In this document: one piece after another, positions 9,511-41,316 of the stretch
Layout of the letters: every line of letters begins with the position of its first letter
Position numbering within the stretch: the stretch's first letter is position 1
DNA from: an uncultured Arachnia sp.
Lineage (GTDB): Bacteria; Actinomycetota; Actinomycetes; Propionibacteriales; Propionibacteriaceae
DNA length: 64,000 nt
Assembly: GCA_947499145.1 (NCBI GenBank)
Contig: CANMNB010000012.1
Coordinates: 146,228-210,227 of the forward strand
Reading direction: 5' to 3'
Program-made: the position numbers and the translations under genes
Notes under the pieces: model-generated
Database searches by the model: none
Told to the model about the DNA's origin: nothing
What the model saw: the letters and a program-made list of their open reading frames with translations, nothing else

Positions 9511-9517
9511 GCGCCCA

Positions 9518-12509: not shown

Positions 12510-12532
12510 TCCCCACACAAAGGAGTGGAGAG

Positions 12533-14451: not shown

Positions 14452-14454
14452 GCG

Positions 14455-19699: not shown

Positions 19700-22146
19700 G
19701 ACTGCCGCACCGTGAACGGCCGCGACATCATCACGAAGCGCAGCACCCGCGCCGCGACCTGCTGGACCTCCCCGAGCCGGACGCCGTTCGGCTTCGCCAG
19801 CGACTTCAGCAGGGAGCCGTCCTTGCCGCGCCGCAGCCCGTCGATCGTCGCCCCGGGCATGAGGACGTCGACCCCCGCGCGGACGCGATAGGCGGAGTCC
19901 TCGAGGTCGGGGAAGTCGGGATCCTTGTCGTGCTGCATCCACCAGTCGGTCATGACCATGCCGTCGTAGCCCCACTGGCCGCGCAGGATGGTGGTGACGA
20001 GCTCGTAGTTGTAGTGGGCCCAGACGCCGTTGACCTTGTTGTAGGAGGTCATAATCGTCTGCGGGCTGGACTCGGCGACACAGATCTCGAAGCCCTTGAG
20101 GTAGATCTCGCGGAGCGCACGCTCGGAGACCCGGGAGTCGTGCTTGTTGCGGTTGGTCTCCTGGTTGTTGGCCGCGAAGTGCTTCGGGCAGGCGGCGACG
20201 CCCTGGGACTGGACCCCGTTGACGACGGCGGCTGCCGCGCGGCCGGTGACCAGCGGATCCTCAGAAAAGTACTCGAAGTTCCGCCCGCACAGCGGGTCGC
20301 GGTGGATGTTCATGCCCGGGCTGAGCAGCACGTCGGAGCCCTTGGCGATCATCTCCTTGCCGTGCTCGGCAGCGAGCTGCTGCACGAGGGCGGGGTTCCA
20401 GGTGGACGCGAGCGCGGTGCCGCAGGGCAGCAGGGACGCGTAGGCGCTGAGCCGGATGCCGGACGGGCCGTCGGTGCAGGTGACCGGCGGCACCCCCTTG
20501 GCGCGGAGTGACTCGGTCAAGCCGCCGAAGACGCCCGCGTTGCCCGCGGCTCCGAGGGGGCTGTTCATGCGACGGTCACCCCGCGTCAGGGCCTCCAAGT
20601 CCTCGTTCCCGAGCTGGGCGACGAACTCCTCCAGCGTGTGACGACCGGCGGCGACGTCGTCGAGGGAGATCCCCCGGTCTCCGGTGGGCCGGATGTCGGC
20701 GGGAAGACCGGACTCGATCCGCTCCTTCAGAGCGACCGTGCGTGTCGGCACGGGCTCCCAGCCGATCTGGATGGCCTCGCCGTCGCGGGCGACGGTCATG
20801 CGCTCGAAGCGATGGGCGGGATCGACGGCGCAGGCCTCCTCCAGTTGCTCCACGACACGCAGCTCCGGGACCTCGTGGCGGCCGACGGGCTCGGCCGTGC
20901 GAACATCCGTACCGACGAGGAACTCGTAGGTGCCCGGCTGCAGCACCCACGCCGACTTGTGGCCGCTGGCACCCGAGTCGTCGTAGGACGCCACGGTGGC
21001 CAGGGGGAATTCCAGGTCCAGGAGCTGGGTCTCGCCAGGGGCGAGCTCCCGGGTCTTGGCGAAGGCGGCGAGGACCCGGGCGGGGGTGGCCAGCGGACCG
21101 TCGGGTTGGGCGACGTAGACCTGCACGACCTCCTGGCCTGCGTGGTGGTTTCCGGTGTTGGTGACGTCGACGGCCAGGCGGACCACGTCGTCGACCACCT
21201 CGACGGAGGTGGCGGTCAGCCGGAAGCTTGCGTAGCCGAGGCCGAATCCGAAGGGGAACTGGACGGCGTCGCGAGCGAAGGTCTCGAAGTAGCGGTAGCC
21301 GACGAAGATGTCCTCGGCGTAGTCGTTGTGGTCGTGGTGCCCGAAGTTCGGGGCGCTCGGGTAGTCCTCGTAGCGGCGGGCGATGGTGTCGGTGAGCCGT
21401 CCCGACGGCGCGACGGCCCCGGTAAGGACGTCCACCAGCGCGCGAGCACCCTCCATGCCGCCCTGCCAGGCGAGCACGAGCCCCTGCAGCCGGTCGCGGT
21501 ACTCCTCCACCCAAGACAGATCCATCACGTTGCCGGTGTTGACCACCGCCACCACGCGCTCGAAGCGTGCGACGACGGCGTCGAGCATGGCCCGCTCGGC
21601 GTCGGTCAGGTAGTAGGAGCCTGGCTCGAGTGCGCTCTCGCGGTCCTCACCGGCGGCGCGGCCGATCACGACGACGGCCACGTTGGCCTCGGCTGCTGCC
21701 TCGCGGAGCAGCGATGCCTCCAGCGGCATCTCCTCGAAATGTCGCGGCCAATGTCCCCAGAACCCCTGGTCCGGGGGGTTGGCTGCGGACCAGCGCTCGT
21801 ACGCGCCGGCGAGGCCGTCGACGAGGGGGACGTCCGCCTCGCGCAGGGCCTGGAGCAGCGATACCTCGTAGAGCGGCTTGACGTCGCCGCCGGATCCGTA
21901 GCCGACGGCGAACCAGTCGCACTGCACCCGCCCGAACACCGCCACCTTCTGCGTCGGCTCCAGCGGGAGGACGTCGTCGTGGTTGCGCAGCAGGACGACT
22001 CCTTCGGCCGCGGCACGCCGCGCGAGGTCGGCAAGCTCCTGCGGCACGGTCCGATCCGTGTTGACGATCTCGGTGGACGCCTGCGTCAGGCCGTTGAACG
22101 CGCGATGCATCAGCTTGTTGTAGACGCGCCAGAATTCTTGCTTCAT
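19693..22146 (-). CDS. Glycoside hydrolase family 3, domain-permuted
   Basis: About 817 residues from MKQEFWRVYNKLM, with GAGG just upstream. The domain order is reversed compared with classical GH3 enzymes: the alpha/beta sandwich (EGVVLLRNHDDVLPLEPTQKVAVFG, then GRAAGEDRE with the likely acid/base Glu) comes first, a fibronectin-III-like module (VTNTGNHHAGQEVVQVYV) follows near residue 390, and the TIM barrel is last (DGPSGIR, KHFAANNQE, GYDGMVMTDWWM with the nucleophile Asp). Permuted GH3 proteins are known as beta-glucosidases and arabinopyranosidases. No signal peptide is present, so it is intracellular. It cleaves terminal beta-linked sugars; the exact one is unknown. Confidence 0.88.
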   Translation of the reverse strand: MKQEFWRVYNKLMHRAFNGLTQASTEIVNTDRTVPQELADLARRAAAEGVVLLRNHDDVLPLEPTQKVAVFGRVQCDWFAVGYGSGGDVKPLYEVSLLQALREADVPLVDGLAGAYERWSAANPPDQGFWGHWPRHFEEMPLEASLLREAAAEANVAVVVIGRAAGEDRESALEPGSYYLTDAERAMLDAVVARFERVVAVVNTGNVMDLSWVEEYRDRLQGLVLAWQGGMEGARALVDVLTGAVAPSGRLTDTIARRYEDYPSAPNFGHHDHNDYAEDIFVGYRYFETFARDAVQFPFGFGLGYASFRLTATSVEVVDDVVRLAVDVTNTGNHHAGQEVVQVYVAQPDGPLATPARVLAAFAKTRELAPGETQLLDLEFPLATVASYDDSGASGHKSAWVLQPGTYEFLVGTDVRTAEPVGRHEVPELRVVEQLEEACAVDPAHRFERMTVARDGEAIQIGWEPVPTRTVALKERIESGLPADIRPTGDRGISLDDVAAGRHTLEEFVAQLGNEDLEALTRGDRRMNSPLGAAGNAGVFGGLTESLRAKGVPPVTCTDGPSGIRLSAYASLLPCGTALASTWNPALVQQLAAEHGKEMIAKGSDVLLSPGMNIHRDPLCGRNFEYFSEDPLVTGRAAAAVVNGVQSQGVAACPKHFAANNQETNRNKHDSRVSERALREIYLKGFEICVAESSPQTIMTSYNKVNGVWAHYNYELVTTILRGQWGYDGMVMTDWWMQHDKDPDFPDLEDSAYRVRAGVDVLMPGATIDGLRRGKDGSLLKSLAKPNGVRLGEVQQVAARVLRFVMMSRPFTVRQSQ

Positions 22147-22283
22147 GTTGTCCTCGCGGTGATGGTCGGGCGTGCCGCCGACTGTGGCGAGGTTACGCCG
22201 ACATCCTCGACTGGCACGAACCCAGTGTAGGCGAAACGCTTCGACGATGGCACGCTCGGGGAACGAGGAGCACCACAACTGAC

Positions 22284-22321
22284 TGTCACATCTGTGCTGG
22301 TCTTCCGTCACAGATGTGACA
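22284..22321. repeat. Perfect 13-bp inverted repeat, family B copy 1 (probable terminator)
   Basis: TGTCACATCTGTG and CACAGATGTGACA flank a 12-nt loop. It lies 11 nt beyond the stop of the minus-strand kinase gene, so it can act as its transcription end. A degraded copy sits at 42237-42278, also right after a minus-strand gene. Confidence 0.7.
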
Positions 22322-22332
22322 CCTAGTGCCTC

Positions 22333-23136
22333 CTACGTCAGGCGCGCGGCCACGTCGATGGCCTGTCGCACGTAGCCGCCGCCGAAGAGGGCCACGTGTA
22401 CCAGCAGCATGTGGAACTGGTGCAGCTCGACGCGGTCCCGCCAACCGTCGGCGAGCGGACTCACCTCGCGGTAGCCCGCAAGGGTCTCCGCGAGGTGCGG
22501 CGACCCGAAGAGGGCCAACTCGGCAAGGTCGGTCTCGGCGTGCCCACCGTGCGCGCTGGGATCGATGAGGGTGCCGACGACCTCGTCACCCGTCGCAGCC
22601 CACACGACGTTCCCACCCCAGAGGTCGCCGTGGATCCGAGCGACACCATCCCTGGCCACGAGCGCCGGCTGCGGGGCGTCGTGGGTGCCGGCGGCGATCA
22701 CCTCGATGGCCCGCTCCACCGTGGAGGTCTGGGCGCGTGCCAGGTTGCCGTTGTCGGCGGCGATGCGGACGTACGGCGCCAGCCGCGTGTCAGCGTAGAA
22801 CTCACCCCATGTCGCGTACCGGGGCTCCGCGACGGCGTGGGCCGGCAGCTCGGCGAGCCGGGCGTCGGCGACGTCGAGTCCTGGCGGCGGCTCCCCCCAC
22901 CATCCAGCGCCTGACGCATGGGTGCGGGCGAGCCGTCGGCCGAACTCCGCGGCCTGCGTGGCGCTGGGCGCGGTGGGGACGAGCATGCGGGTGGAGAGGT
23001 GCTGCTCCCCCACGTCGACGACCTCGGCCACCGCCGCTCCCCCTTCGACCTCGGCCTCGGCGAGCCAGGCCAAGCTCGCAACCTCCGTGGCCACGCCCGC
23101 ACGGGATCCGGTCTTGCGGAAGACCTCCCCGATCAT
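22333..23136 (-). CDS. Fructosamine kinase family protein
   Basis: 267 residues. The signature ARIHGDLWGGNVVW, followed by LIDPSAHGGHAETDLAELALFG, is that of the fructosamine-3-kinase/ketosamine kinase family: HGDLW holds the catalytic Asp and DPSAHGGHAETD the metal-binding Asp. The N-terminus begins MIGEVFRKTGSRAGVATEVASLAWL. Such enzymes phosphorylate sugars attached to amines, so that glycated proteins or small molecules can be repaired or used. The start overlaps the stop of the upstream HAD gene (ATGA), so the two are co-translated; a kinase paired with a phosphatase suggests one deglycation or carbohydrate task. Confidence 0.9.
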   Translation of the reverse strand: MIGEVFRKTGSRAGVATEVASLAWLAEAEVEGGAAVAEVVDVGEQHLSTRMLVPTAPSATQAAEFGRRLARTHASGAGWWGEPPPGLDVADARLAELPAHAVAEPRYATWGEFYADTRLAPYVRIAADNGNLARAQTSTVERAIEVIAAGTHDAPQPALVARDGVARIHGDLWGGNVVWAATGDEVVGTLIDPSAHGGHAETDLAELALFGSPHLAETLAGYREVSPLADGWRDRVELHQFHMLLVHVALFGGGYVRQAIDVAARLT

Positions 23137-23927
23137 CCCGGGGCCGCCCCCGGCATGTCGAGGAGTTGGTGCACGCCGTCGAGGATCTCGGAGGGGCGGA
23201 ACGGGAAGCGCTCGACCTGCGTCCGCGTCGCGATTCCCGTGAGGACGAGGACGGTGTGCAGGCCGGCCTCCATCCCGGCGATGATGTCGGTGTCCATGCG
23301 GTCGCCGATCATGCCGGTCTCCTCGGAGTGGGCGCCGATCCGGTTCAGGGCGGAGCGGAACATCATCGGGTTCGGCTTGCCGACGACGTACGGCTTGCGG
23401 TTGGTGGCCTCGGAGATCATCGCCGCGATGGCGCCCGTCGCGGGCAGGATCCCCTCGGCGCTGGGGCCCGTGGGGTCCGGGTTCGTGATGATGAAGCGCG
23501 CGCCCTTGGCGATCAGTCGAACAGCCGTGGTGATGGACTCGAAGGAGTAGGTCCGGGTCTCGCCCACCACGACGAAGTCCGGGTCACGCTCGGTCATGAC
23601 GAAGCCCGCATCGTGAAGGGCGGTGATCAGGCCGGCCTCGCCGATGACGTACGCCGAGGCGCCGGGCAACTGGGACTGCAGGAAGTCGGCCGTGGCCATG
23701 GCGGAGGTCCAGAGCCGTTCCTCGGGGACCTCGAGCCCGGAGTCGCGCAGCCGCGCGGCGAGGTCGCGGGGGGTGAAGATGGAGTTGTTCGTCAGGACGA
23801 GGTACTCCGTGCCCTCTGTCCTCCACTTCTCGAGGAGTTCCTGGGCGCCCGGGAGGGCACTGTTCTCGTGGACGAGGACGCCGTCCATGTCGGTGAGCCA
23901 GCACCGGATGTCCTTACGCGTACGCAT
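23133..23927 (-). CDS. HAD-superfamily IIA sugar phosphatase (NagD-like)
   Basis: About 264 residues. Motif I is CWLTDMDGVLVHEN (DxDG), motif II VLTNNS, and motif IV GDRMDTDIIAGMEAGLHTVLVLTG; the large C2a cap lies between. This is the NagD/4-nitrophenylphosphatase branch of HAD hydrolases, which remove phosphate from sugar phosphates or nucleotides. The MRTRKDIRC start was preferred to the longer ORF-track start because a TACGGT -10 box lies 6 nt before it, giving a leaderless mRNA. It is the first gene of a two-gene unit with the fructosamine kinase. Confidence 0.88.
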   Translation of the reverse strand: MRTRKDIRCWLTDMDGVLVHENSALPGAQELLEKWRTEGTEYLVLTNNSIFTPRDLAARLRDSGLEVPEERLWTSAMATADFLQSQLPGASAYVIGEAGLITALHDAGFVMTERDPDFVVVGETRTYSFESITTAVRLIAKGARFIITNPDPTGPSAEGILPATGAIAAMISEATNRKPYVVGKPNPMMFRSALNRIGAHSEETGMIGDRMDTDIIAGMEAGLHTVLVLTGIATRTQVERFPFRPSEILDGVHQLLDMPGAAPG

Positions 23928-23960
23928 GGCCCAACCGTATCCCGCCTGCCCGGATCCCAC

Positions 23961-24905
23961 TCAGGAGAGTTCGACGACCCACGTCTGCAGGATGTCCTCC
24001 AGACGACCGTGCAGGCGGATGTTCGCGAGGTCGTCGCCACGGGTGGCGCCGTCGTTGACGATCACGACCTCCTTGCCGTCGCGCGCCGCCCGGCGCACGA
24101 AGCGCAGGCCGCTCATCACCGTCAGGCTCGAGCCCAGCACGACGAGCGCGTCGGCGGCGTCCAGCGCGGCGAACGCCTCGTCGACGACGCGACGATCCGC
24201 GTTCTCGCCGAAGAACACCACGTCCGGCTTGAGGATTCCGGTGCAGCGCGGGCAGGCGGGCACCCGGAACTCGTCGGTGCGGTCCACCTCGGCGTCGCCG
24301 TCGGGCAGGGTCATGGCCTCACGGGCGAGGTCGTCGAGGCGGCGGGCGACCTCCGGGTTGCGGGCCAGCAGGTCGTCCTGGAAGTCGTCGCGGTCGATGA
24401 GGAGGCCGCAACCCAGGCACACGACCCGCGACAGGGCGCCGTGGAGGTCGATCACCGGGTCCGAGCCGGCCTCCTGGTGCAGCTGGTCCACGTTCTGCGT
24501 GACCACGGCGCGGACGGACAGGCGGCGCTGGAGGCTGGCCAGCCTGAGGTGGTTGTCGTTGGGTTCGGCTGCCTGGAAGGCCTGCCAGCCGACGACGCTG
24601 CGAGCCCAGTAGCGGCGTCGCGATGTCTCCGAACCGACGAACTCCTGGAACGTCATGGGCGAGCGGGGCCGGGCGTCGGGACCGCGATAGTCCGGCAACC
24701 CGGACGCCGTCGACATGCCCGCCCCGGTGAGGAACGTGACCGTGCTCCCGGCGATCCGACGGGCGGCCGCCACGACGTCCTCCTCCGGCGAGGTCCTCCC
24801 GAAGCCCCCGGTGCCAGGGCCCCAGGCACCCGTCGATGGCAGGGTGACGCCCCCGTCGACGGCCGTGCGGAACCATCCGCCGACGTCCGGCATGCGCTCG
24901 CTCAC
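23961..24905 (-). CDS. Sir2-family NAD-dependent protein deacylase
   Basis: About 314 residues. Sirtuin motifs in order: FLTGAGMSTASGLPDYRG (NAD site), VVTQNVDQLHQEAG, the catalytic His in DLHGALSRVVC, a zinc ribbon CLGC...CPRC, then PDVVFFGE and VVLGSSLTVMSG. GMSTASGLPDYRG departs from the usual GISTxSGIPDFRG. The start is taken as GTG at 24905 because TACGGT lies 6 nt upstream; the ATG four codons later is also possible, and the ORF-track start 69 nt upstream lies before this -10. It is divergent from the PadR gene. It would remove acyl groups from lysines of metabolic enzymes. Confidence 0.9.
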   Translation of the reverse strand: MSERMPDVGGWFRTAVDGGVTLPSTGAWGPGTGGFGRTSPEEDVVAAARRIAGSTVTFLTGAGMSTASGLPDYRGPDARPRSPMTFQEFVGSETSRRRYWARSVVGWQAFQAAEPNDNHLRLASLQRRLSVRAVVTQNVDQLHQEAGSDPVIDLHGALSRVVCLGCGLLIDRDDFQDDLLARNPEVARRLDDLAREAMTLPDGDAEVDRTDEFRVPACPRCTGILKPDVVFFGENADRRVVDEAFAALDAADALVVLGSSLTVMSGLRFVRRAARDGKEVVIVNDGATRGDDLANIRLHGRLEDILQTWVVELS

Positions 24906-24936
24906 GCTGTCACCGTACCCGGCTTGACCGATGCGC

Positions 24937-24948
24937 ATATCGTGATAT
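24937..24948. promoter_or_regulatory. Operator candidate between sir2 and padR
   Basis: ATATC-gt-GATAT is a short perfect dyad in an AT-rich stretch (GATATATC follows at once) about 40 bp before the PadR start. PadR repressors usually bind AT-rich dyads in their own promoter, so autoregulation is plausible. Confidence 0.35.
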
Positions 24949-24987
24949 ATCTTTAGCGCATCGATACATGACACTGAAGGAGAATCG

Positions 24988-25539
24988 ATGACCTACGACA
25001 TGCACCCTGAACGCCGCGGAGGACGCGGACATCGCCGAGGCCCCGGGCCGGAGGGTCGCCGGCATGGCGGACCCGACACCGGCCATGGGCGGGGCCAGGG
25101 CAGGCGCCGGCACCGCGGACACGTCCGCGTCGCCGTCCTGACCCTGCTCTCCGAGGAGCCCATGCACGGCTACCAGCTCATGCAGACCATCTCCGAGCGC
25201 ACCAACGGCGCCTGGGCACCGAGCCCCGGGGCCATCTACCCCACGCTGGCACTGCTGGAGGACGAAGGCTTGGTCAGCGTCGTCGAGAGCGACGGACGCA
25301 AGCTGGCGACCCTCACGGATGCCGGCCGCGCCTACGTGGCCGAGCACCAGACCACCTGGCCCGACCCGTTCCCGAGCGACGAGACCCGGGCGGAGAACCT
25401 GCGCGAGCTCGTGCAGCAGGTCGCCGAGGCCACGCGCCAGGTGGGGCGCAGCGGAAGCCCCGACCAGCACAGCGCCGCAGCACAGGTGCTGCGCGACGCC
25501 CGCAAGGCGCTGTACCTCCTGCTGGCCGAGCAGGACTGA
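24988..25539 (+). CDS. PadR-family transcriptional regulator
   Basis: 183 residues. After a 45-residue tail very rich in Gly, His and Arg (GGRGHRRGPGPEGRRHGGPDTGHGRGQGRRRHRGH), the winged helix begins: VRVAVLTLLSEEPMHGYQLMQTISERTNGAWAPSPGAIYPTLALLEDEGLV, which is diagnostic for PadR. AAGGAG precedes the ATG. The His/Arg/Gly N-tail is unusual and could bind metal or nucleic acid, but similar tails occur in other actinobacterial PadR proteins. Its target is unknown. Its stop is 1 nt from the convergent GH35 stop. Confidence 0.9.
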   Translation: MTYDMHPERRGGRGHRRGPGPEGRRHGGPDTGHGRGQGRRRHRGHVRVAVLTLLSEEPMHGYQLMQTISERTNGAWAPSPGAIYPTLALLEDEGLVSVVESDGRKLATLTDAGRAYVAEHQTTWPDPFPSDETRAENLRELVQQVAEATRQVGRSGSPDQHSAAAQVLRDARKALYLLLAEQD

Positions 25540-25540
25540 C

Positions 25541-27772
25541 CTACCCGACCACCACCGACCGGGTGTGGCGGACCGCCACCTGGTCGAGGGCCAACAGCGG
25601 CCCCGCGGTGGCATCGCGACGATCGGCCGCGGCGGGAGGCAACCAGACGAGCGCCTCCGGATGCAGCGGGAGGATCTCGAGCACGAGCTCGTCCCCGGTC
25701 CCCGGCAGGGCCTCGACGTCGAGCAGCCAGGGCGTCTGGTCGTAGAAGCGATCGGCCACCACCTCGCCACCGCGCACGAGTCGCGCGACGTCGCCCGCCC
25801 AGCTGATCTCCAGTAGTCGCTCGCCGCCGTCCAGCGGGTCAGGCAGCTTGAACCCCCAGCGAGCGGCCGCGTCCCAGTCACCCCCGGTCGGCGCCGCTGC
25901 GCGCCCCCCGGAGGATCCGTACGACGCGGGCGCCTCACCCGCGTCCCGCACGAGCCCCGTCGCCAGCACCACCGGCGAGGGGGCTCTCGTCGTTCCTGCG
26001 TCGAGCCCCACCCAGGCGCCGTCGCGCCATGCGTCGACGCGCGGGCGTCCCGATGTGCGCACCACGAGCCTGCCCCCGTCTATCCACACCGGTTCATCGG
26101 AGCGGACCACTCGGCGCTCGGCACCGAGCACCCAGAGCCGGGCAGCATCGTGGGCGGCGATGACGTGCACGTCGACGGCGGCGTCGCCGTCGCGGATGTG
26201 GAGGCGACCGCCGTCGGTGAGTTCCCAGACGCCCTGCTCGAGTTCCAGCCCGTCCCCGGTCACCTGCGCCCCCGCCGCGAACGCGACCTGCGCGGGGATG
26301 CCCGGTTCCGCCACCAGGAACAGGCCGTCGCCGTTACGGGTGAGCAGCGACGCCGTCGCCCAGCGCACGGTCACGCCGTCGACGTCGACGTTCACCGGCC
26401 AGCGGGCGACGGTGCCGGGTGGAATGTCGAGTGGCGCGTGGCCGAGCACGACGGTCTCCCCGTCCAGCCCGACCTCCAGCCTGACTCCGGGGATCGCGGG
26501 AAGCGGGATGTGCGGTTGGTGCCAGTTGACGAACACCACCCCGGAGCGGCCATCGCTACGAAGGCTCCAGCGGGGAGCGTCGTCCGGCGAGATGGCGGCC
26601 GGCATGGGCGCGAACCACTCGTCGAACGCCTCGACGAAGGCATGCTGCAGTCGTAGGCCGGCCATCGCCGGCCCCGGGCTCCCGGCGGCGCCGATCGGCG
26701 CCTGGAAGTCGTAGTCGAACTCCGGCAGGTCGTTGGGGTAGCCAGTGGCCTGCGACTCCTGCATGCCCGGCTCCGGGTTCGTGCCTCCGACGTACATGTA
26801 GTAGCCCTGCCACGCTGATCCGCTGCCCAGCTTGGCGTTCGCGACGGCTGGGACGTCGAGGGGCAGCAGCACCGGTCGGCGATGGTAGGCCGTCGCCATT
26901 CCCCCACCCAGCTCGCACGTGGCGACGGGGAACGTGGGGTCCACGTCCTTGGTTGCGACGCTGTCGATGTCGACGCCGCGGACGTCCGCGCCGGTACCCG
27001 GGTCGTCCCACTCGTGCGACATCCGAAAGTGCGCCCTGAACGTCGGATGCCAGGGCGAGTCGTGATCCACCCAGAACCCGTCGCCGTAGCCCGACCACAC
27101 CGGCAGGACCTCGTCGGGGGGCAGGTCTGCACCGCCCCACGCCGTCGCGGTCCAGATGGGGGTGCTGAGGCCCGCCTCACGGGCCAGTGATTTGAGGGTG
27201 GCAAGGTGCTGCGGCTGGTCGTAAAGCTCGTTCTCGAGCTGGATCGCGACGATCGGCGAGGTGGGCCCGCACAGGTCTCCGACCGCGTCCGCGACGTGGG
27301 CGTACCAGCCGCGCACGACGTCGAGGTAGGCCGGGTCGTCGGTGCGGTGCTGAACCGGCAGCTCCTGGACCCAGTCCGGGAAGCCGCCGTTGCGGGCCTC
27401 GGAATGGACCCAGGGCCCGATGCGCAGGGCGACGAGGAGCTCCAGCTCGGCGCAGAGCTCGATGAAGGCGCGGAGGTCGAGCTCACCGTCGAACGTGGCC
27501 CGGCCACGGACGGGCTCGTGGTGCAGCCAGATGACGTAGGTGGACACGACGTCGACTCCGCTGGCCTTCAGAAGCAAGAGCCGTTCGCGCCAGTCGCGAC
27601 GGGGCACGCGCGAGTAGTGCATCTCGCCCGAGATGGGCAGCCACGGCCGACCGTCGAGCGTGAGGTGCCGACTGGTCATGGCGACACGCTCGTGACGGTC
27701 GACCTCGTTGGACATGCGGGGCCGGGTCAGTGGCGTCTGCCAGGCGGCTGCGGTGAGGCGGGACACGGGCAT
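25541..27772 (-). CDS. GH35 beta-galactosidase
   Basis: About 743 residues. The GH35 barrel is clear: LPISGEMHYSRVPRRDWRERLLLLKASGVDVVSTYVIWLHHEP at residues 46-88, the acid/base Glu in AIQLENELY (near 182) and the nucleophile Glu in VATCELGGGM. Several beta-sandwich domains follow. There is no signal peptide, so it is intracellular and removes beta-galactosyl (or beta-GlcN) residues from oligosaccharides. Start: ATG at 27772 has GGGGGAAG upstream; the ORF-track GTG at 27805 overlaps a TAGGGT -10 box and is rejected. A later ATG (MSNEV) is also possible. Confidence 0.85.
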   Translation of the reverse strand: MPVSRLTAAAWQTPLTRPRMSNEVDRHERVAMTSRHLTLDGRPWLPISGEMHYSRVPRRDWRERLLLLKASGVDVVSTYVIWLHHEPVRGRATFDGELDLRAFIELCAELELLVALRIGPWVHSEARNGGFPDWVQELPVQHRTDDPAYLDVVRGWYAHVADAVGDLCGPTSPIVAIQLENELYDQPQHLATLKSLAREAGLSTPIWTATAWGGADLPPDEVLPVWSGYGDGFWVDHDSPWHPTFRAHFRMSHEWDDPGTGADVRGVDIDSVATKDVDPTFPVATCELGGGMATAYHRRPVLLPLDVPAVANAKLGSGSAWQGYYMYVGGTNPEPGMQESQATGYPNDLPEFDYDFQAPIGAAGSPGPAMAGLRLQHAFVEAFDEWFAPMPAAISPDDAPRWSLRSDGRSGVVFVNWHQPHIPLPAIPGVRLEVGLDGETVVLGHAPLDIPPGTVARWPVNVDVDGVTVRWATASLLTRNGDGLFLVAEPGIPAQVAFAAGAQVTGDGLELEQGVWELTDGGRLHIRDGDAAVDVHVIAAHDAARLWVLGAERRVVRSDEPVWIDGGRLVVRTSGRPRVDAWRDGAWVGLDAGTTRAPSPVVLATGLVRDAGEAPASYGSSGGRAAAPTGGDWDAAARWGFKLPDPLDGGERLLEISWAGDVARLVRGGEVVADRFYDQTPWLLDVEALPGTGDELVLEILPLHPEALVWLPPAAADRRDATAGPLLALDQVAVRHTRSVVVG

Positions 27773-27836
27773 GGGCTTCCCCCAAACTGGACGATGACCC
27801 CACACCCTAGAGCAGGTAGTCCCCCTGCGCCCTCAG

Positions 27837-27895
27837 GAAAATCGAACACTGATCGATTCTCCCCCGTCCGCGTCCGAGACTGCTTCACTGACCCC
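27837..27895. repeat. Dispersed palindromic repeat, family A, copy 3
   Basis: GAAAATCGAACACTGATCGATTC, then TCCCCCGTCCGCGTCCGAG and TCACTGACCCC: the same three blocks as copies 1 and 2. It lies about 65 bp upstream of the GH35 start. Confidence 0.8.
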
Positions 27896-27908
27896 AACGG
27901 TTCCGGCC

Positions 27909-28367
27909 TCAGCCCACCTCGGAGACGGCCAACAACTGTCCCAACACCGAGCGGTACCCCAACTTCAACACCTGCGCCGCCGGGCGCTGCAGGAACCCGG
28001 GCAGCCACGGGAGTTGGACCTCGTGGTGCCAGCGGACGAAGCTGCCCCCGGGCATGGGCGTGACCAGGAGGCGGATGCTGCCGCGGATGGCGCGGCTGTG
28101 CTTGCTGATGCGTGCGCTGGCGGTGGGACTGTCGTCGCCGAGCCGCAGTTCCTCGACCCGCATGACGTCGTTGAAGCCCACGGGCCCCAGACCCGTGCGC
28201 GCGACGAACTGCGAACCGACCCTGAGCTCGTCCGCGGCGACGGCGGGGGTCACCGTCGTCAGCGGGATCACCCGCGAGTGCTCGCGCAGGTCGAGGATGC
28301 GCCGGATCGCCTCCGGCGGCCGGCAGCCACACTCGATCTCGATCGTGAACGACGCCCGCTCAGCCAC
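27909..28367 (-). CDS. SRPBCC-family protein (polyketide cyclase/START-like)
   Basis: 152 residues with the alternating pattern of the SRPBCC helix-grip fold: an N-terminal strand MAERASFTIEIECGCRPPEAIRRILDLREHSRVIPLT, a middle GSFVRWHHEVQLPW, and the long C-terminal helix RPAAQVLKLGYRSVLGQLL. Such proteins bind hydrophobic ligands, and some cyclise or hydrolyse them. It overlaps the methyltransferase by 8 bp and follows a P450, so it may bind or process their product. Function not known. Confidence 0.75.
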   Translation of the reverse strand: MAERASFTIEIECGCRPPEAIRRILDLREHSRVIPLTTVTPAVAADELRVGSQFVARTGLGPVGFNDVMRVEELRLGDDSPTASARISKHSRAIRGSIRLLVTPMPGGSFVRWHHEVQLPWLPGFLQRPAAQVLKLGYRSVLGQLLAVSEVG

Positions 28368-29091
28368 GGCGTCCCCTGACGAGATGGAGGATGTCGCGTT
28401 GCCAGCCGTCGACGGTGCGCGCCTCCAAGCGCCTGAACCCCGCGTCGGCCATCTGGTCCATGAGCACCGGGATGGAGGCGAAGTCGTCGACGGAGCGGTG
28501 CAGGTAGTCGTACAACTCGCGCTGCCGGGCGACCACGGCGGAGAGCGGTGTGATGACCAGCTTGTTCACCCAGCTCCAGCGACGCTGCGCGTGGCCAGCT
28601 CCGGCCACCGAGTAGTCCATCGCCACGAACGGCGCGTCGTCCGCCATCGCCGTCGCGATCGCGGTGAGCGTGCCGGGCACGTCCGGGACGTTGCGCAGCA
28701 GGTAACAGGCGAGCGCGCCGTCGACCCTCGGGAGATCCAGCTCGGCGAGTTGCTCGGCGCGGGCGTGGCGGAACGTCACCTCGGCAGGCCAGTCGCGGCG
28801 GCGGGCCTGTTCCAGCATCCCGGCCGACGCGTCGACCCCCACAATGGTGGGCTCCATGCCACGCTCGCGGGCGGCAGCCAGGAGGGCTGCCGTCGAGAGG
28901 CCGGTGCCGCACCCCAGGTCGAGGAGGAGCGGCCGGGGCTCGTCGACGAGGTCGAGCAGTGCCTCGGCAGCGGTGCGCAGGTGGCGGTGGTACCCGGGGT
29001 TGAGGCCGACCATGACGTCGTAGGTGTCGGCGACGGCGTCGAAGCCGTGGGCGACGGAGCGGCGGGTGAGCGGTCGGCGGGCGTCGTGCAT
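28360..29091 (-). CDS. SAM-dependent class I methyltransferase (UbiE-like)
   Basis: 243 residues. Motif I LLLDLGCGTGLSTAALL binds SAM, followed by VGVDASAGMLEQAR (motif post-I) and CYLLRNVPDVPGTL. The N-terminal FDAVADTYDVMVGLNPGYHRHLR resembles the UbiE/MenG type. It methylates an unknown acceptor. It is 39 nt after the P450 stop and overlaps the SRPBCC gene. TAGCGT ending 7 nt before the ATG suggests an additional own leaderless promoter. Confidence 0.83.
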   Translation of the reverse strand: MHDARRPLTRRSVAHGFDAVADTYDVMVGLNPGYHRHLRTAAEALLDLVDEPRPLLLDLGCGTGLSTAALLAAARERGMEPTIVGVDASAGMLEQARRRDWPAEVTFRHARAEQLAELDLPRVDGALACYLLRNVPDVPGTLTAIATAMADDAPFVAMDYSVAGAGHAQRRWSWVNKLVITPLSAVVARQRELYDYLHRSVDDFASIPVLMDQMADAGFRRLEARTVDGWQRDILHLVRGRRG

Positions 29092-29130
29092 GACGGCAAC
29101 GCTACTGGCGACGCGTGCCCTGCGCGGGGA

Positions 29131-30315
29131 TCAGCGACCGAGTCTCAGTGTGAAGCCCCGCAGCCAGTAGCCCGCGATGAGGTCATCCCAGCCCAGCTGG
29201 GGCTCCGCGATGATCTCGGGCTCGCGGGCGAGCAGCCGCGTCAGCAGGATGTCGGACTCCAGGATCGCCAGCGGATGACCCGGGCACTTGTGCGCCCCGT
29301 CGCCGAAGCTGAGCCCGGTCCCGTCGACGCCGCGCGGCAGCTCGCGTCCCGGGCACAGGGCGAGCGGATCCGCGCCGACGGCGTCGGGGTCCGCGTTGGT
29401 CTGGCGGATGTGGACGTCGACCAGCTCCCCCGGGTGGAGCGTGTAGGCGTCGTCGCCGTCGGTGACGTCGATGGATTCCTGGACGCGCCGGTAGATGTGG
29501 CCGACGACGGGCTCGAGCCGCATGATCTCCTCGAGAATCGCGTGGCGCTCGGGTTGGCCCGCGACGAGGTAGCGGGCCCGGAGGACGTCGTCGTCGAGGA
29601 GGTGGCGGGCGGCCATGCAGATGAACTCGCGGGTGGTGACCATGCCAGCGGTGCCGTAGGTGACGCACTCGACGAGGATGTCGACGTCGGTGTAGTCCTC
29701 GGCGATCAGGTGGCTGATGATGTCGTCCTGCGGCTCCTTGCGACGGGCACGGATGGCGGGCCGGACGTCGCGGAGGTGGAACTTGAGGATCGGCGCCAGT
29801 CCGTTGAACGCGGCCTGCATCCACTGCCGATTGGTGCGTCCGAGTCCCGGCTTGGTGATGTCGAAGGGCGGCTGGTTGAAGAAGCTCACCAGCCGCCTGG
29901 ACATGCGCTCGACCGGCGAGTTGGTGAGCCCGACGACCTCCGCGGTGACCTCGACGGTGTAGTGCAACGCGAGCTCGTCGAGGTCGAAGGTGTCGCCGGC
30001 CTCACGCAGCAGCCTGTCGGCGCAGGCCTCCATGTTGTGCGTGTACTTGCGCGCCACGACGGCGGGCGCGAAGAAGCGTGCGACCTTCTTGCGCTGCTCG
30101 TCGTGCAGCGGCCCGTCGGACATGAGGATCGGGTGGTGCTTGAGGTAGCCCTTGGGGATGGCCTCGGCGGTGAAGCCCGCCTGCGTCGTCGCGTGCCGGG
30201 CCCTGAGCACCTGTCTGGCCGCCTCGAGCGACCGGATCCGCCACAGCTGCCCGGACTTCTCCACCCGGGGAGTGTCGCGCTCGCCGTCGCGCACAGCCCG
30301 TCGCTGGTTCGCCAC
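29131..30315 (-). CDS. Cytochrome P450
   Basis: About 394 residues from GTG (MANQRRAVRDGERD), with GGAGG 7 nt upstream; the track ORF extended this to 453. Family marks: I-helix TYGTAGMVTTREF with an unusual Gly-Met-Val in place of the common GxxT, the EEIMR ExxR motif, RRVQESIDV, and the haem loop FGDGAHKCPGHPLA with the Cys thiolate. It needs ferredoxin/reductase partners, none of which is nearby. With the methyltransferase and SRPBCC protein downstream it forms a compact tailoring unit whose substrate cannot be read. Confidence 0.9.
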   Translation of the reverse strand: MANQRRAVRDGERDTPRVEKSGQLWRIRSLEAARQVLRARHATTQAGFTAEAIPKGYLKHHPILMSDGPLHDEQRKKVARFFAPAVVARKYTHNMEACADRLLREAGDTFDLDELALHYTVEVTAEVVGLTNSPVERMSRRLVSFFNQPPFDITKPGLGRTNRQWMQAAFNGLAPILKFHLRDVRPAIRARRKEPQDDIISHLIAEDYTDVDILVECVTYGTAGMVTTREFICMAARHLLDDDVLRARYLVAGQPERHAILEEIMRLEPVVGHIYRRVQESIDVTDGDDAYTLHPGELVDVHIRQTNADPDAVGADPLALCPGRELPRGVDGTGLSFGDGAHKCPGHPLAILESDILLTRLLAREPEIIAEPQLGWDDLIAGYWLRGFTLRLGR

Positions 30316-30356
30316 TGTCCCACCTCCGGCCCCCAGTATCCCGCGCGCCACCCTCC

Positions 30357-30420
30357 GAAAATCGATCAGTGGTCGATCTTCCCCCGTCCGCTTCCGAAAA
30401 TAAACCGCCAACCCCGCCGA
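30357..30420. repeat. Dispersed palindromic repeat, family A, copy 4
   Basis: GAAAATCGATCAGTGGTCGATC, then TTCCCCCGTCCGCTTCCGA; the distal CACTGACCCC block is degraded. It sits between the divergent P450 and esterase genes, 42 bp before the P450 start. Confidence 0.75.
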
Positions 30421-30448
30421 AACGTCACGTGGCCGGAATACTGGCCCC

Positions 30449-31438
30449 ATGCAGATCCGCACCCACAGCGTCGGCCACGACGCCACCCTCACCGCCTACG
30501 TCCAGGAACCCAGCGCGGAGCTCGGCAACGCCGCGACCCGACCGGCCGTCCTCGTGCTGCCAGGCGGCGGATACTTCTACACCTCCGACCGCGAAGCCGA
30601 GCCCATCGCGCTGGCCTACCTCGCCGAGGGGTTCAACGCCTTCGTTCTCCGCTACGCCGTCGGCGCGGAGTCGCCGTTCGAGAAGTCCTTCGACGACGCC
30701 AAGGCGGCGCTCGCCTGGATCCGCGGGAACGCGGCCGACCTGCTCATCGACCCGACGAAGGTGGCAGCCGTCGGCTTCTCGGCCGGCGGGCACCTGGCCG
30801 CCAGCCTCGCCACGGCCGCGGAGGACAAGCCCGACGCCCTCGTCGTCGGCTACCCCGTCACACTCGAGGAGTTCGGCCCGCCCGTGGGCAAGGAACTGCT
30901 CGACGTCCCCAGCCACGTCACCGCCGACACGCCTCCCACGTTCCTGTTCAGCACCTGCGACGACACGGTGGTGCCGATCCGCAACTCCCTCGCCTTCCTC
31001 AGCGCCCTCGCCGAGGCGGGGGTGCCGTTCGAGTCCCACATCTATCTCCTCGGCCCCCACGGCCTCAGCCTGTCCACGGCGGCGACGGCGAACGGTCGGG
31101 GCGAGATGGTGGAGCGCTCCGTCGCCCAGTGGTTCCGCGACTCCGTCCGCTTCCTCCTCACCGTGTTCGGGGACTTCGCCGTCGACGGCGCCCCGGAGAC
31201 CTTCGACACCCTGCTCCGGCGCCGCCGGCCCGGCCTCGACATGCCCATCGGACGACTCCTCGACGACGACCGCGCGGCCGAGGTGCTGCGTCGCCATGCC
31301 CCCGACGTCGTCGCCGCTGCGGAGAGCGACCGGTTCACCCGGGGAATCTCCATCCGGCAGGTAATGGATTACCGTCCCAATGCGCTGGCCCCGGAGGCCG
31401 TCGCTTCCCTGGAGCGAGAACTGGCCAACTTGGCCTGA
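30449..31438 (+). CDS. Alpha/beta-hydrolase (acetylxylan-esterase-like) with C-terminal extension
   Basis: 329 residues. The esterase core runs to about residue 215: oxyanion-hole HGGG-like LPGGGYFYTSDREAEP, nucleophile elbow VGFSAGGHLA, acid Asp in STCDDTVVP, and His in LLGPHGLSLS. It resembles BD-FAE/AXE carbohydrate esterases that strip acetyl groups from xylan pieces. The last ~80 residues (ETFDTLLRRRRPGLDMPIGRLLDDDRAAEVLRRHAPDVV) form a helical module not needed for the fold and of unknown use. AATACT lies 6 nt before the ATG, suggesting a leaderless transcript. No signal peptide. Confidence 0.8.
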   Translation: MQIRTHSVGHDATLTAYVQEPSAELGNAATRPAVLVLPGGGYFYTSDREAEPIALAYLAEGFNAFVLRYAVGAESPFEKSFDDAKAALAWIRGNAADLLIDPTKVAAVGFSAGGHLAASLATAAEDKPDALVVGYPVTLEEFGPPVGKELLDVPSHVTADTPPTFLFSTCDDTVVPIRNSLAFLSALAEAGVPFESHIYLLGPHGLSLSTAATANGRGEMVERSVAQWFRDSVRFLLTVFGDFAVDGAPETFDTLLRRRRPGLDMPIGRLLDDDRAAEVLRRHAPDVVAAAESDRFTRGISIRQVMDYRPNALAPEAVASLERELANLA

Positions 31439-31448
31439 CAAGCAGCGC

Positions 31449-31856
31449 AAGACTGGGCTGGCGCGCGGCACCGGCCTGGCCGTCCCCGCCGCGTCCGAGC
31501 ATGCCGAGCTCGCGGCCGAGTTCAACGCCTTCGCCAAGCTCTCCCTCCCCGCGAACGTCGCGGTCTGGGAAGTTCTCGGCTTCGATCCGGTCAACATGTC
31601 GGTCTGGGAGGACAAGGAAGTCACTCACAACGAGGACAACAAGTTCAACCAGTACTTCACGACCAACCTGTTCGACGTCCTCAACGAGGTCAAGGGCGGC
31701 ATCGGGCACTTCCAGTCCTTCGCCAACCCCAACCTGCCCCCCGTGGACAACTGGTTCCGCACCGTCACTCTCAACGAGATCTACGAGAACGGCACCCCGG
31801 TCCAGGAGGCCCTCGACCAGGCCCAGTCGGACCTGGAGAACGAGATCGGCGAGTGA
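31449..31856 (+). pseudogene. C-terminal remnant of an AraN-like sugar-binding protein
   Basis: The open frame encodes TGLAVPAASEHAELAAEFNAFAKLSLPANVAVWEVLGFDPVNMSVWEDKEV and ends ALDQAQSDLENEIGE. This matches the last ~130 residues of family-1 extracellular sugar-binding proteins of the AraN type (the WEVLGFDP segment is characteristic). Signal peptide, lipobox and the N-terminal 300 residues are missing, and there is no start with a ribosome site. Partner permeases are absent. The remnant begins right behind the esterase stop, so a deletion has fused the two ends of a former ABC locus. Confidence 0.75.
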
Positions 31857-31889
31857 TCCTGGGCTGACCCAGCCCGCGTAGCAACAAGG

Positions 31890-31922
31890 GCGGCCGAGAC
31901 GGGCTCAACTCGTCTCGGCCGC
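31890..31922. terminator. Bidirectional terminator between remnant and tail-sheath gene
   Basis: GCGGCCGAGACG and CGTCTCGGCCGC pair in a perfect 12-bp stem (9-nt loop) followed by TCTCTCTG on the plus side. It lies between converging genes. Confidence 0.75.
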
Positions 31923-31941
31923 TCTCTCTGTCCCCCGACTC

Positions 31942-33099
31942 TTACCGGCCCCACGGGAGGTTGCGGCGCCAGCGCAGGAGGAACGGTCTGGTGACGTCCT
32001 CGTGCTCCGCGCCCGTGAGCGTCTGGACGCGGACGGTGAGGACGTCGAACTCGGCGGGCTTCAGGGTCGCGACGAAGACGGTGAGCACCAGGCGTCCGGC
32101 TTCGAGGTCGGCCTGGGTCATCGTCTCGCCGAGCCCACAGCGCACGCCGAAGGCCTCCTCCGGTGTGGCCCCCTGCAGGGCTCCGCGCCGCCAAAGGTCG
32201 AGAAGGAAGTTCCCGGCGAGCATCCGCACCCGGGCCCACAACGGCGCCTCGTTGGGCTCGAAGACCGCGAACTCCAGTCCGGCCGCCAGGGATCCGCTGA
32301 TGTGGTCGACGAGCCGTCGCATGGCCAGATACCGGCGTGGGGGCTCCGCACTGTCGACAGCGGCGAGCGTCCGCGCCCCCCACACCCTCAGGCCCCGGCC
32401 GGGGAACTCCCGGATCGGGTTGACCCCGTGCTCGGTCAGAAGTTGGCCCGCCGCCTCGTCGATGGTCTCGGTCAGTGCGTCAATTCCGTGCAACGCAACG
32501 TTCGCGGGCGCCTTCCACACGCCACGCGTCGCGTCGGTGTGAGCGATGCTCCCCGCGACAGCTCCCGACGGCGGGATTTCCACCCCACCCATCACCAGCC
32601 AGGGATGGTAGACAGCGGCCCGCTCCCGATGGGGACCCGCCTGCGCGGCCGCGGCGCGCGCGTCGTTGCCCCACGGCCCAAGGGGCAGATCCAGGAGCAG
32701 CACGGCTCGACGCTCCGCACACCAGTTCAGCGCATGGGCCACGGGGAGGGAGTGGACGGCTGTCAGGCCGGGGACTACCAGGACCGTCACGCCGGCCCCG
32801 TCGAGGGCGTGCAGCCCGCCCACACCGGCGGTGGGGACGAGCAGCTCCGGCGCCGGTCCGGCGGCGCGGACCACCGTCGCGCTGGTGCCGCCGTTGGCGA
32901 AGAACAGATCCACGGCGTGCCCCAGGGGCTGGTCCCCATCCAGGCTGGGTCCGAACGTGGCGTGGTACTCCGACGGGCTGGTCACCACCACCGGCGTGTC
33001 CACCGGCCCCTGACTGCAGGCGCCGACGAAGCCCGTCACGGACGTGGGCAACGGCTGGATCGCCGCGCCCGCAGACAACACCTCCTCGATGTACGGCAT
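31942..33099 (-). CDS. Orphan phage tail sheath family protein
   Basis: 385 residues. VGACSQGPVDTPVVVTSPSEYHATFG near the N-terminus, then GVEIPPSGAVAGSIAHTDATRGVWKAPANVALHGIDAL, INPIREFPGRGLRVWGARTL (here VNPIREF) and FEPNEAPLWARVRMLAGNFLLDLWRRGALQGATPEEAFGVRC are the standard conserved blocks of contractile tail sheaths (phages, T6SS-like and extracellular injection systems). No tube, baseplate, ATPase or other structural gene is nearby; neighbours are an ABC remnant and GH36. It could be a leftover of a prophage or injection cluster, or a domesticated sheath. It is shorter than typical sheaths but keeps both terminal blocks. Confidence 0.85.
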   Translation of the reverse strand: MPYIEEVLSAGAAIQPLPTSVTGFVGACSQGPVDTPVVVTSPSEYHATFGPSLDGDQPLGHAVDLFFANGGTSATVVRAAGPAPELLVPTAGVGGLHALDGAGVTVLVVPGLTAVHSLPVAHALNWCAERRAVLLLDLPLGPWGNDARAAAAQAGPHRERAAVYHPWLVMGGVEIPPSGAVAGSIAHTDATRGVWKAPANVALHGIDALTETIDEAAGQLLTEHGVNPIREFPGRGLRVWGARTLAAVDSAEPPRRYLAMRRLVDHISGSLAAGLEFAVFEPNEAPLWARVRMLAGNFLLDLWRRGALQGATPEEAFGVRCGLGETMTQADLEAGRLVLTVFVATLKPAEFDVLTVRVQTLTGAEHEDVTRPFLLRWRRNLPWGR

Positions 33100-33228
33100 C
33101 TCCTCACCTTGTCCGAGGCGGCGGACGTCCGCAAGGCCTTGGGACGTCCGATCTCGACGGGCGTCCGAGTTCCGCTACCCACCACCACTAGGGTCGGTCC
33201 CGACGCACCACAGCCACCGGAGGCCGCC

Positions 33229-35373
33229 ATGTCCACCACCTGCATCTCGTTCGGCGCCAGCGGCGTCGGCATCGTCCTCGCCAGCATCGACGGGCGACTG
33301 CCCCAGGTCCTGCACTGGGGCCCGCGGGTCGCCGTCGAACCGGGCGACGTCGACGCCCTCACGCTGACTGACACGTGGGGTGTCGCCCCCAGCTCGCTGG
33401 ACCACCCTCTGGTCCTCGGCATCGTCCCCGAGGCCAGGTTCGGCTGGACGGGGACACCCGGCCTCATCGGCTCCCGCGACGGGGAGGACTGGTCACCGGA
33501 GTGGCAGGTGACCGGAGTCACGGTGGACGGCGACGCCGTCGGGGAGGGCCTCACCAGCCGCGACTCCGGCATCGCCGAGTTCCACGCCACGGCTGAGCAC
33601 AGCCGCCTCACGCTCGCGATCCGCATCGAGATGCTCCCGACGGGGCTGGTCCGGGCCCGCGCCACCCTGACGAACGACGACGATGCGACCTACGACGTGC
33701 AGGAACTGACGCTGCGGTTCCCGGTCCCGTCCGAAGCCCGCGAGATCCTCGACTTCGCTGGCCGCTGGGGCAACGAGCGCGCGCCCCAGCGCGGTGTGCT
33801 CAACGTCGGCGCGCACCGGCGCGAGGGCCGTCACGGCCGCACCGGGGCCGACGCCGCCTACGTCCTCACGCTCGGCGAGGCGGGCTTCCGCTACGAACGG
33901 GGCCAGACCTGGGCGGTCCACACCGCCTGGAGCGGCAATCACCTGCACATCGCGGAGCGTGACTACCTTGGCGCGCACGTCGTCGGCGGTGGCGAACTCC
34001 TCTTGCCCGGCGAGGGTCGACTCGACCGGGGACAGGCCTACGAGTCCCCGTGGGTCTACTTCAACTACGCCGACGGTCTCGACGAGCAGGCCGCCCGCTT
34101 CCATGACCACCTGCGCGGGCTGCCCGTCCATCCCGACAGCCCACGACCGGTGAGCCTCAACGTGTGGGAGGCCGTCTACTTCGACCACGATGCCGCACGG
34201 CTGATCGACCTGGCCGAGCGTGCGGCCCGCTTGGGCGTCGAGCGCTACGTCCTCGACGACGGGTGGTTCGGTGCCCGTCGCGACGACAAGGCGGGCCTGG
34301 GCGACTGGGTGGTCAGCGCTGACGTCTGGCCAGACGGCCTGCACCCGCTCGTGGACCGGGTCAAGGAGCTCGGCATGGAGTTCGGGTTGTGGTTCGAGCC
34401 CGAGATGGTGAATCTCGACTCCGACGCGGCCCGCGCGCACCCCGACTGGGTGATGCAGCCCGGCGGGCGTTTGCCGATCCCGGCCCGGACCCAGTACGTC
34501 CTGAACCTGACCGTCCCGGGAGCCTTCGACCACGTCCTGGGCCAGATGTCGGCGATCCTCAACGACTACGCCATCGACTACGTGAAGTGGGACCACAACC
34601 GCGACCTCGTCGACGCCGGTACCGCGCCGCACGGCCAGCCGGCCGTCGCCGCGCAGACCCGGGCGTTCTACCGCCTCCTGGACGAACTTCGCACCCGGTT
34701 CCCGCACGTGGAGTTCGAGTCCTGCTCCTCCGGCGGCGGCCGCATCGACCTCGAGGTGATGGAGCGCGCCGAGCGGGTCTGGGTCTCCGACAACATCGAC
34801 CCCGAGGAGCGCCAGCGCATGCTCTGGTGGACCGGCCAGCTCCTGCCGCTGGAGCTGATGGGCAGCCACATCGCCTCCGGCCGCTCCCACACCACCGCCA
34901 GGTTGCACGACCTCCACTTCCGGGCAGCCACCGCCGTCTTCGGGCACCTCGGTATCGAGTTGGACCTGGCCCAGGCCACCGAGGAGGAGCTGGAGCAGCT
35001 CGGTTGGTGGATCGACTGGTACAAGACCCACCGCCGCACCCTGACCACCGGCCGGCTCCATCGCGTGACCCTGTCGGACCCGGAGGTGTACTTCAAGGGC
35101 GTCGTCGCGGATGACGCGGCGATCTTCTCGCTGAGCATGCTGCGCGTCACGCCGTCGTTCAGCCTGGGCAAGCTCCGTTTCCCCGGCCTCGACCCCGATG
35201 CCCGGTACCGCCTCACCGTCATCGACCGGCAGCACATCTTCGAGGGCATCCGCACGCCGTGGCAGCGGCACGACGGCGTGGTGCTGACCGGCGCGCAACT
35301 CACCCACGTCGGGGTGCGCGCGCCGGCCATGCATCCGTCGACGGCGGTCCTGTTCACCCTGGAGCGCGTCTGA
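33229..35373 (+). CDS. GH36 alpha-galactosidase
   Basis: About 714 residues from ATG with GGAGG 5 nt upstream (the ORF track extended it falsely by 400 codons). The N-terminal beta-supersandwich is followed by the barrel: RYVLDDGWFGARRDD, LWFEPEMVNLDSD, the nucleophile Asp in DYVKWDHNRD, ESCSSGGGRIDL, and the acid/base Asp in VWVSDNIDPEERQ. A C-terminal beta domain ends the protein. It removes alpha-galactose from raffinose-type sugars or galactomannan. No signal peptide, so it is cytoplasmic. It is a single gene, with no transporter next to it. Confidence 0.93.
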   Translation: MSTTCISFGASGVGIVLASIDGRLPQVLHWGPRVAVEPGDVDALTLTDTWGVAPSSLDHPLVLGIVPEARFGWTGTPGLIGSRDGEDWSPEWQVTGVTVDGDAVGEGLTSRDSGIAEFHATAEHSRLTLAIRIEMLPTGLVRARATLTNDDDATYDVQELTLRFPVPSEAREILDFAGRWGNERAPQRGVLNVGAHRREGRHGRTGADAAYVLTLGEAGFRYERGQTWAVHTAWSGNHLHIAERDYLGAHVVGGGELLLPGEGRLDRGQAYESPWVYFNYADGLDEQAARFHDHLRGLPVHPDSPRPVSLNVWEAVYFDHDAARLIDLAERAARLGVERYVLDDGWFGARRDDKAGLGDWVVSADVWPDGLHPLVDRVKELGMEFGLWFEPEMVNLDSDAARAHPDWVMQPGGRLPIPARTQYVLNLTVPGAFDHVLGQMSAILNDYAIDYVKWDHNRDLVDAGTAPHGQPAVAAQTRAFYRLLDELRTRFPHVEFESCSSGGGRIDLEVMERAERVWVSDNIDPEERQRMLWWTGQLLPLELMGSHIASGRSHTTARLHDLHFRAATAVFGHLGIELDLAQATEEELEQLGWWIDWYKTHRRTLTTGRLHRVTLSDPEVYFKGVVADDAAIFSLSMLRVTPSFSLGKLRFPGLDPDARYRLTVIDRQHIFEGIRTPWQRHDGVVLTGAQLTHVGVRAPAMHPSTAVLFTLERV

Positions 35374-35931: not shown

Positions 35932-36090
35932 CGCCCCACTCCGTTCACGAGCCGCGGCACGTGCGGGACGCCATCCGCGTTCCGCCTTGTGCTGGATCCC
36001 AGCAGGGTTGCTGCTCTTCACTCCAGATTACGCCGGTCGTGAGCGATGGGGGGCAGATCGTTCCTCGATGGGGCGCGCAACTGCTCTTCC

Positions 36091-36228
36091 GTTCCCCGAG
36101 CAAGGCACGAAGCGCCCGTGTCGAGGGGACGCCTCGACACGCCGCCTCCAGCGGCTACTCGGCGACCGTTGCGGAGGCTACTCAGCGACCGTTCTCCGAG
36201 TAAGCGCGAAGCGCCGTGTCGAGGAGAG
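36091..36228. repeat. Cluster of intergenic repeats (family C)
   Basis: Two copies of GTTCCCCGAGCAAGGCACGAAGCGCCCGTGTCGAGGGG-like sequence (36091-36128 and 36191-36224) flank TCGACACGCCGCCTCCAGCGGCTACTCGGCGACCGTT. The same units recur at 37769-37882 and 41284-41316. They are GC-rich, partly self-complementary and non-coding, filling the gap to the next gene. Confidence 0.7.
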
Positions 36229-37768: not shown

Positions 37769-37882
37769 CACCCCTCGACACGGGCGCTCCGCGCTCTACT
37801 CCGGGAACGGGGGACAAACAGCTCCGCACCCTACTCCGGGAACAGTTGCCGAGTGGCCGCCGAAGGCGGCGTGTCGAGGCGC
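37769..37882. repeat. Family C repeats upstream of the FAD/Rieske gene
   Basis: CCCTCGACACGGGCGCTCCGCGCTCTACTCCGGGAAC is an inverted copy of the unit at 36091 and 36191; CCGAGTGGCCGCCGAAGGCGGCGTGTCGAGGC (from about 37850) is a hairpin-forming unit matched at 36132 and 41284. With the element at 37894 they fill the 321-bp gap 37721-38041. Confidence 0.7.
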
Positions 37883-41168: not shown

Positions 41169-41283
41169 GACGGCACCTCCCCCGTCGCGTGCGGCAGGAT
41201 GTCAGCGGCCCCGAGGGGCCAGGTACTTTGACCGTCGTCCATCCCGAAAGCCTAGACGCCCAGCAGGGCCGCCCCGTCGATCG

Positions 41284-41316
41284 CCGAGTAGCCGCCGCAG
41301 GCGGCCTGTCGAGGCG
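41284..41316. repeat. Family C hairpin repeat near 41.3 kb
   Basis: CCGAGTAGCCGCCGCAGGCGGCCTGTCGAGGCG matches the unit near 37850 and 36132. It lies 50 bp from a 75-bp inverted-end element, the same pairing as at 37.8-38.0 kb. Confidence 0.7.

Follow-up and report, generated by a model that had tools for sequence, protein, structure and literature searches.

Isorenieratene is an orange aromatic carotenoid and a pigment of cheese rinds. According to the title of a 2005 paper by Dufosse and de Echanove (cited in PMC6579920), a P450 monooxygenase takes part in the final aryl-carotenoid step in Brevibacterium aurantiacum ATCC 9175, a strain formerly placed in B. linens; a review that also cites the paper describes this enzyme as hydroxylating isorenieratene (PMC12096840). 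No gene for P450-dependent isorenieratene hydroxylation is named in the open literature searched. Hydroxylation of a carotenoid end ring as a last step, as proposed below for the P450 of the present locus, is also carried out by CYP287A1 (DR2473) of Deinococcus radiodurans, a carotenoid 2-beta-hydroxylase that adds the 2-hydroxyl to 2-deoxydeinoxanthin (PMC11306087), the likeness being one of function. The isorenieratene clusters of Streptomyces are arranged as crtEIBV / crtYTU, with crtT between crtY and crtU (PMC8539372).

The window analysed here, the whole stretch of 64,000 nucleotides from an uncultured Arachnia sp., contains three minus-strand genes which an earlier note on this DNA had delineated, and both the genes and their coordinates were borne out:

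29131-30315, minus strand: P450 of 394 amino acids, candidate aryl-carotenoid (isorenieratene) 3-hydroxylase (p450 Pfam match; heme, ExxR and I-helix motifs; crtU linkage)
28360-29091, minus strand: UbiE-like SAM methyltransferase of 243 amino acids, CrtT-like (Ubie_methyltran Pfam match; clade adjoining crtU; Streptomyces homologue)
27909-28367, minus strand: SRPBCC / START-like lipid-pocket protein of 152 amino acids (AF2 model; Foldseek; overlap with the methyltransferase gene)

The P450 gene starts at 30315 with GTG, preceded by GGAGG. The gap between the P450 and methyltransferase genes is 39 nt and the SRPBCC and methyltransferase reading frames share 8 nt at the methyltransferase stop, so that the three genes look like one transcript. 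An esterase gene (30449-31438) diverges from the P450 gene, and the SRPBCC gene is followed on the same strand by a gene for a GH35 glycosidase, as assigned by Pfam. Glycosidase genes surround the mini-cluster (window 19693-35373), with GH35 assigned by Pfam and GH3-like and GH36-like members recognised by eye only. A lone phage-type tail-sheath-like protein (31942-33099) and, adjoining its gene, the apparent 3' end of a solute-binding protein gene (31380-31856) were likewise noted by eye.

The same genome has its own crt cluster on another contig (C18, locus L090), with the following genes in L090 coordinates:

8253-9860: crtU
10076-11506: crtE
11506-12984: crtI
12981-13844: crtB
13847-14947: crtY

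As in the Streptomyces isorenieratene clusters, crtU, E, I, B and Y are accompanied in this genome by a CrtT-like methyltransferase. On the basis of sequence comparison, the mini-cluster is probably (at about 0.78) a detached arm of an isorenieratene-type pathway, serving carotenoid ring hydroxylation after CrtU. In the proposed scheme the L090 genes would make an aromatic C40 carotenoid, whose aromatic end rings would be hydroxylated by the window P450 with redox partners encoded elsewhere. C-3 would be the most likely site of isorenieratene hydroxylation, with 3-hydroxy- and 3,3'-dihydroxyisorenieratene as the products. The methyltransferase would be the CrtT of the genome, probably acting in the CrtU branch, and the SRPBCC protein may hold or pass on the hydrophobic substrate. 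Gene content, family membership, crt linkage and co-occurrence are the established basis for the carotenoid reading of the P450; its reaction, the position of the hydroxyl and any joint action of the three genes are what we infer. Counting against a place in this pathway is the location of the P450 gene outside the crt cluster, both in the window genome and in its closest sister clade.

Neither a P450 nor a methyltransferase is present in the L090 crt cluster, and no close full-length second copy of either was found elsewhere in the window genome. The only close P450 paralogue (L048:9604-10590, on contig C2 of G000) has an in-frame deletion from the middle of the I-helix through the ExxR region, while the copies in congeners (L049-L054) are intact. 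Having lost the latter half of the I-helix along with the ExxR region, this paralogue is very probably inactive, and the functional P450 and the sole methyltransferase of its clade would therefore be the window copies. The earlier suggestion that an available lipid, quinone or terpene is tailored holds in kind, the predicted substrate class being an aromatic C40 carotenoid from a crt cluster on another contig. The product, then called unknown, is now pointed to as an aromatic carotenoid by the crtU-linked P450 family and the genome's own L090 cluster, which leaves the SRPBCC part of the locus unaccounted for.

The P450 matches the p450 Pfam model (E 3.5e-14), with heme ligand Cys344 in FGDGAHKCPG, EIMR as ExxR and the I-helix TYGTAGMVTTREF. 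Thus the FxxGxxxCxG cysteine, the ExxR motif and the I-helix of the superfamily are all in place, and the acidic I-helix residue alone is replaced, by Val (AGMVTT), a family-wide feature. AGM(V/A)TTRE was found in 92/92 intact family members, and the longer motif TYG(T/A)AGM(V/A)TTRE(F/Y) in 93 members, barring two single substitutions and one truncated paralogue. AGM(V/I/A)TTRE also occurs in relatives of 43-46% identity from Deinococcus, Nonomuraea and Sphingobium, so that the acid-less I-helix appears to be an old family trait and no peculiarity of the window P450. The claim that AGMVTT departs from AGxxT was mistaken, since the motif fits AGxxT and differs only in having Val in place of the acid preceding the Thr, invariantly in the family; the unusual oxygen chemistry deduced from it is unsupported as stated. 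The best solved-structure match by sequence, CYP164A2 (3r9b; profile E 3e-22), is a remote homologue whose own I-helix has the usual AGHETT, in contrast to the AGMVTT of the window P450's family. The family constitutes a natural set in which the acidic I-helix residue is uniformly replaced.

A family scan with one genome per species yielded 80 named genome loci with P450s at 55-79% identity, from hosts including Brevibacterium, Isoptericola, Ornithinimicrobium, Serinicoccus, Kocuria, Acidipropionibacterium and many Propionibacteriaceae. Within 10 kb of the P450, crtU was present in 54/80 loci, at least three crt genes in 51/80 and the methyltransferase family in 31/80. In B. aurantiacum ATCC 9175 (L179) a P450 58% identical to that of the window, with the same I-helix and heme motifs, lies directly before crtYd-crtYc-crtU, and the gene order crtE-like, P450, crtYd, crtYc, crtU is shared with B. 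linens ATCC 9172 (L184). The window P450 is nested in the tree of this crtU-linked actinobacterial family and has the identical motif TYG(T/A)AGM(V/A)TTREF; to judge from its sequence, it is a further member of the aryl-carotenoid P450 family of the Brevibacterium type. Unlike the ATCC 9175 gene, that of the window is detached from crt genes and stands in an operon with the CrtT-like methyltransferase and SRPBCC genes. Such detachment is also seen in the closest sister clade (L112-L114, L182), suggesting that the P450 left the crt cluster before the window species formed. Since linkage to crtU is common and not universal, position in a crt cluster is no strict defining feature of the family. 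This family is likely to be the one responsible for P450-dependent isorenieratene 3-hydroxylation, a reported step which seems to have no gene assigned to it. What had been a cluster of unknown product thereby becomes a specific prediction, directly testable on the ATCC 9175 gene beside crtYd-crtYc-crtU.

The distribution of the P450 follows that of the carotenoid genes. Among 25 genomes of the genus, including that of the window, P450 and CrtI occur together in 13 and are jointly missing from the other 12 (Fisher 1.9e-7, ignoring kinship of the genomes), some of the CrtI calls being matches of only 34-37% identity. Across 148 genomes of the family, P450 occurs in 53 and CrtU in 59, with 46 having both, 7 P450 only, 13 CrtU only and 82 neither (Fisher 5e-19, ignoring phylogeny). 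In near-complete genomes the corresponding counts are 39, 2, 12 and 64, and five of the seven P450-only genomes are less than 90% complete. CrtU without P450 is therefore common and P450 without CrtU rare, suggesting that the P450 acts after CrtU.

It has to be considered whether the P450 instead hydroxylates a beta-ring carotenoid before aromatisation, or some other crt intermediate, as CYP287A1 (DR2473) does with 2-deoxydeinoxanthin. That example shows that carotenoid beta-rings can be hydroxylated by P450s (PMC11306087), and Deinococcus has relatives of the window P450 (41-46% identity) that share its I-helix. This order of events is nevertheless unlikely, because the P450 follows the aromatising CrtU both phyletically (46/53) and in position, and because the hydroxyl of the Brevibacterium product is, according to the review (PMC12096840), carried by the aromatic ring. 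The D. radiodurans P450 found by homology, 43% identical to that of the window, is encoded at a distance from crt genes on a replicon of 412 kb. The Deinococcus and Sphingobium relatives at 41-46% identity have no crt genes close by, suggesting that the wider P450 family also serves other ends. Plasmid-borne Deinococcus and Sphingobium P450s of 43-46% identity, with an acid-less I-helix and not near crt, were observed at L223, L224, L226, L227, L229 and L230.

The methyltransferase matches the Ubie_methyltran Pfam model (E 2e-19). Its membership of the UbiE superfamily, together with the tight spacing, common orientation and 8-nt overlap of the genes and the position of the P450 outside the crt cluster, would fit a self-contained operon tailoring menaquinone or another lipid, to which carotenoids are linked by ancestry only. 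Against this, the protein scores 62-87 bits with the best-scoring UbiE/MenG equivalog models, far below their curated cut-offs of 216-420, and identity as a UbiE/MenG quinone methyltransferase was rejected for this reason. Moreover, the P450 and the methyltransferase each belong to a crt-linked clade, and both genes are missing from 12/12 crt-negative members of the genus, making a separate menaquinone or lipid operon highly improbable.

The detached arm of a carotenoid pathway agrees with the relationships of the methyltransferase, which falls in a clade with 100% support and four relatives. Three of these, from three genomes, adjoin crtU (L067 (/L096), L068 (/L097) and L214), and the fourth (L208) accompanies glycosyltransferase genes and an SRPBCC gene. 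A Streptomyces anulatus plasmid encodes a homologue 38% identical to the window methyltransferase in the order crtY-MT-crtU, that is, where crtT lies in the crtYTU cluster, with no P450 within the 16.7 kb examined. By homology and by placement with crtY and crtU elsewhere, the window methyltransferase is classed as CrtT-like. Six genomes (G028, G030, G033, G036, G039, G040) have the methyltransferase and crtI without a close P450 homologue, and the P450 is also found in genomes without the methyltransferase. Action on the P450-made hydroxyl is accordingly disfavoured, and the methyltransferase probably acts in the CrtU branch. It is doubtful that the methyltransferase and SRPBCC protein act on a phenolic carotenoid from the P450 to give an undescribed methylated aryl carotenoid. 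In one relative such a product might also be glycosylated, given the glycosyltransferase-like ORF between the methyltransferase and SRPBCC genes of L208.

The SRPBCC protein scored below the cut-off with Polyketide_cyc2 (Pfam E 1.4e-4). Its AlphaFold (AF2) model has a pLDDT of 93.1 and in Foldseek matched START, COXG and Bet v 1 proteins of the PDB (E ~1e-6), confirming a helix-grip fold at the level of the predicted structure. Homologues of 49-70% identity occur in a minority of P450-bearing genomes, none of them near crt genes or P450. Presence of the SRPBCC gene tracks that of the P450 in 15/19 genomes (Fisher 5e-5), an association that genome relatedness may explain. As no crt locus or further P450 locus has this gene in its vicinity, it was rejected as a member of the crt cluster, and any role given to the protein is held with low confidence. 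Rarity of the three genes as neighbours in other genomes, which the earlier note had named as speaking against its grouping, was found for the trio, the SRPBCC gene being within 10 kb of the P450 at 0/80 other named loci. It was not found for the P450 and methyltransferase, which have crt clusters in common in many genomes. In some relatives (L099, L102) the SRPBCC homologue adjoins a FAD/Rieske oxidoreductase gene, which has a homologue in the window at 36230-37720, and this locus may be the former neighbourhood of the SRPBCC gene. The only other methyltransferase and SRPBCC neighbourhood found was that of L208, from another genus, in which the SRPBCC homologue is 35% identical and the methyltransferase is of the same clade. 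There, on one strand (L208:9478-11891), lie a methyltransferase, a GT28-like ORF and an SRPBCC domain, adjoined by GT4, GT2 and PIG-L/methyltransferase genes.

A dispersed, near-perfect 25-bp palindrome, GAAAATCGATCA-C-TGATCGATTTTC, flanks the three genes with one copy on each side, the two in direct orientation:

30357-30381: palindrome copy, 42 bp upstream of the P450 start
27837-27861: second, direct copy, just past the SRPBCC stop and before the next gene

Two further copies lie at 8419-8443 and 8510-8534, making four in the window where 0.01 would be expected by chance. The degree of palindromy, the excess over chance and the position of one copy just before the P450 start raise the speculation that the flanking copies are operators of a regulon including the P450 operon and the GH35 gene. 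However, the window genome has 57-62 copies where two congeners have 5-6 and 37 other genomes have none, the similarity extends over about 60-70 bp, past the palindrome itself, and the crt cluster at L090 has no copy. A recently spread repeat fits these observations better than a conserved regulon, so that a shared operator is very unlikely and was set aside as the main reading in favour of a species-limited dispersed repeat. A REP/REPIN element driven by a RAYT was ruled out, since no match to the RAYT-type transposase domain (Y1_Tnp, PF01797) was obtained in the window genome, in which controls matched. Recombination between repeat copies may possibly have moved the three-gene unit or held it together; this is left as a bare possibility because close pairs of the repeat are not rare in the genome, the copies often being paired about 91 bp apart. 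Repeats of a second family (CGCCTCGACACGCCGCC...), both inverted and direct, with arms of 40-49 nt that are 84-88% complementary, are present in the window at 36089-36178, 37771-37881 and 41268-41316.
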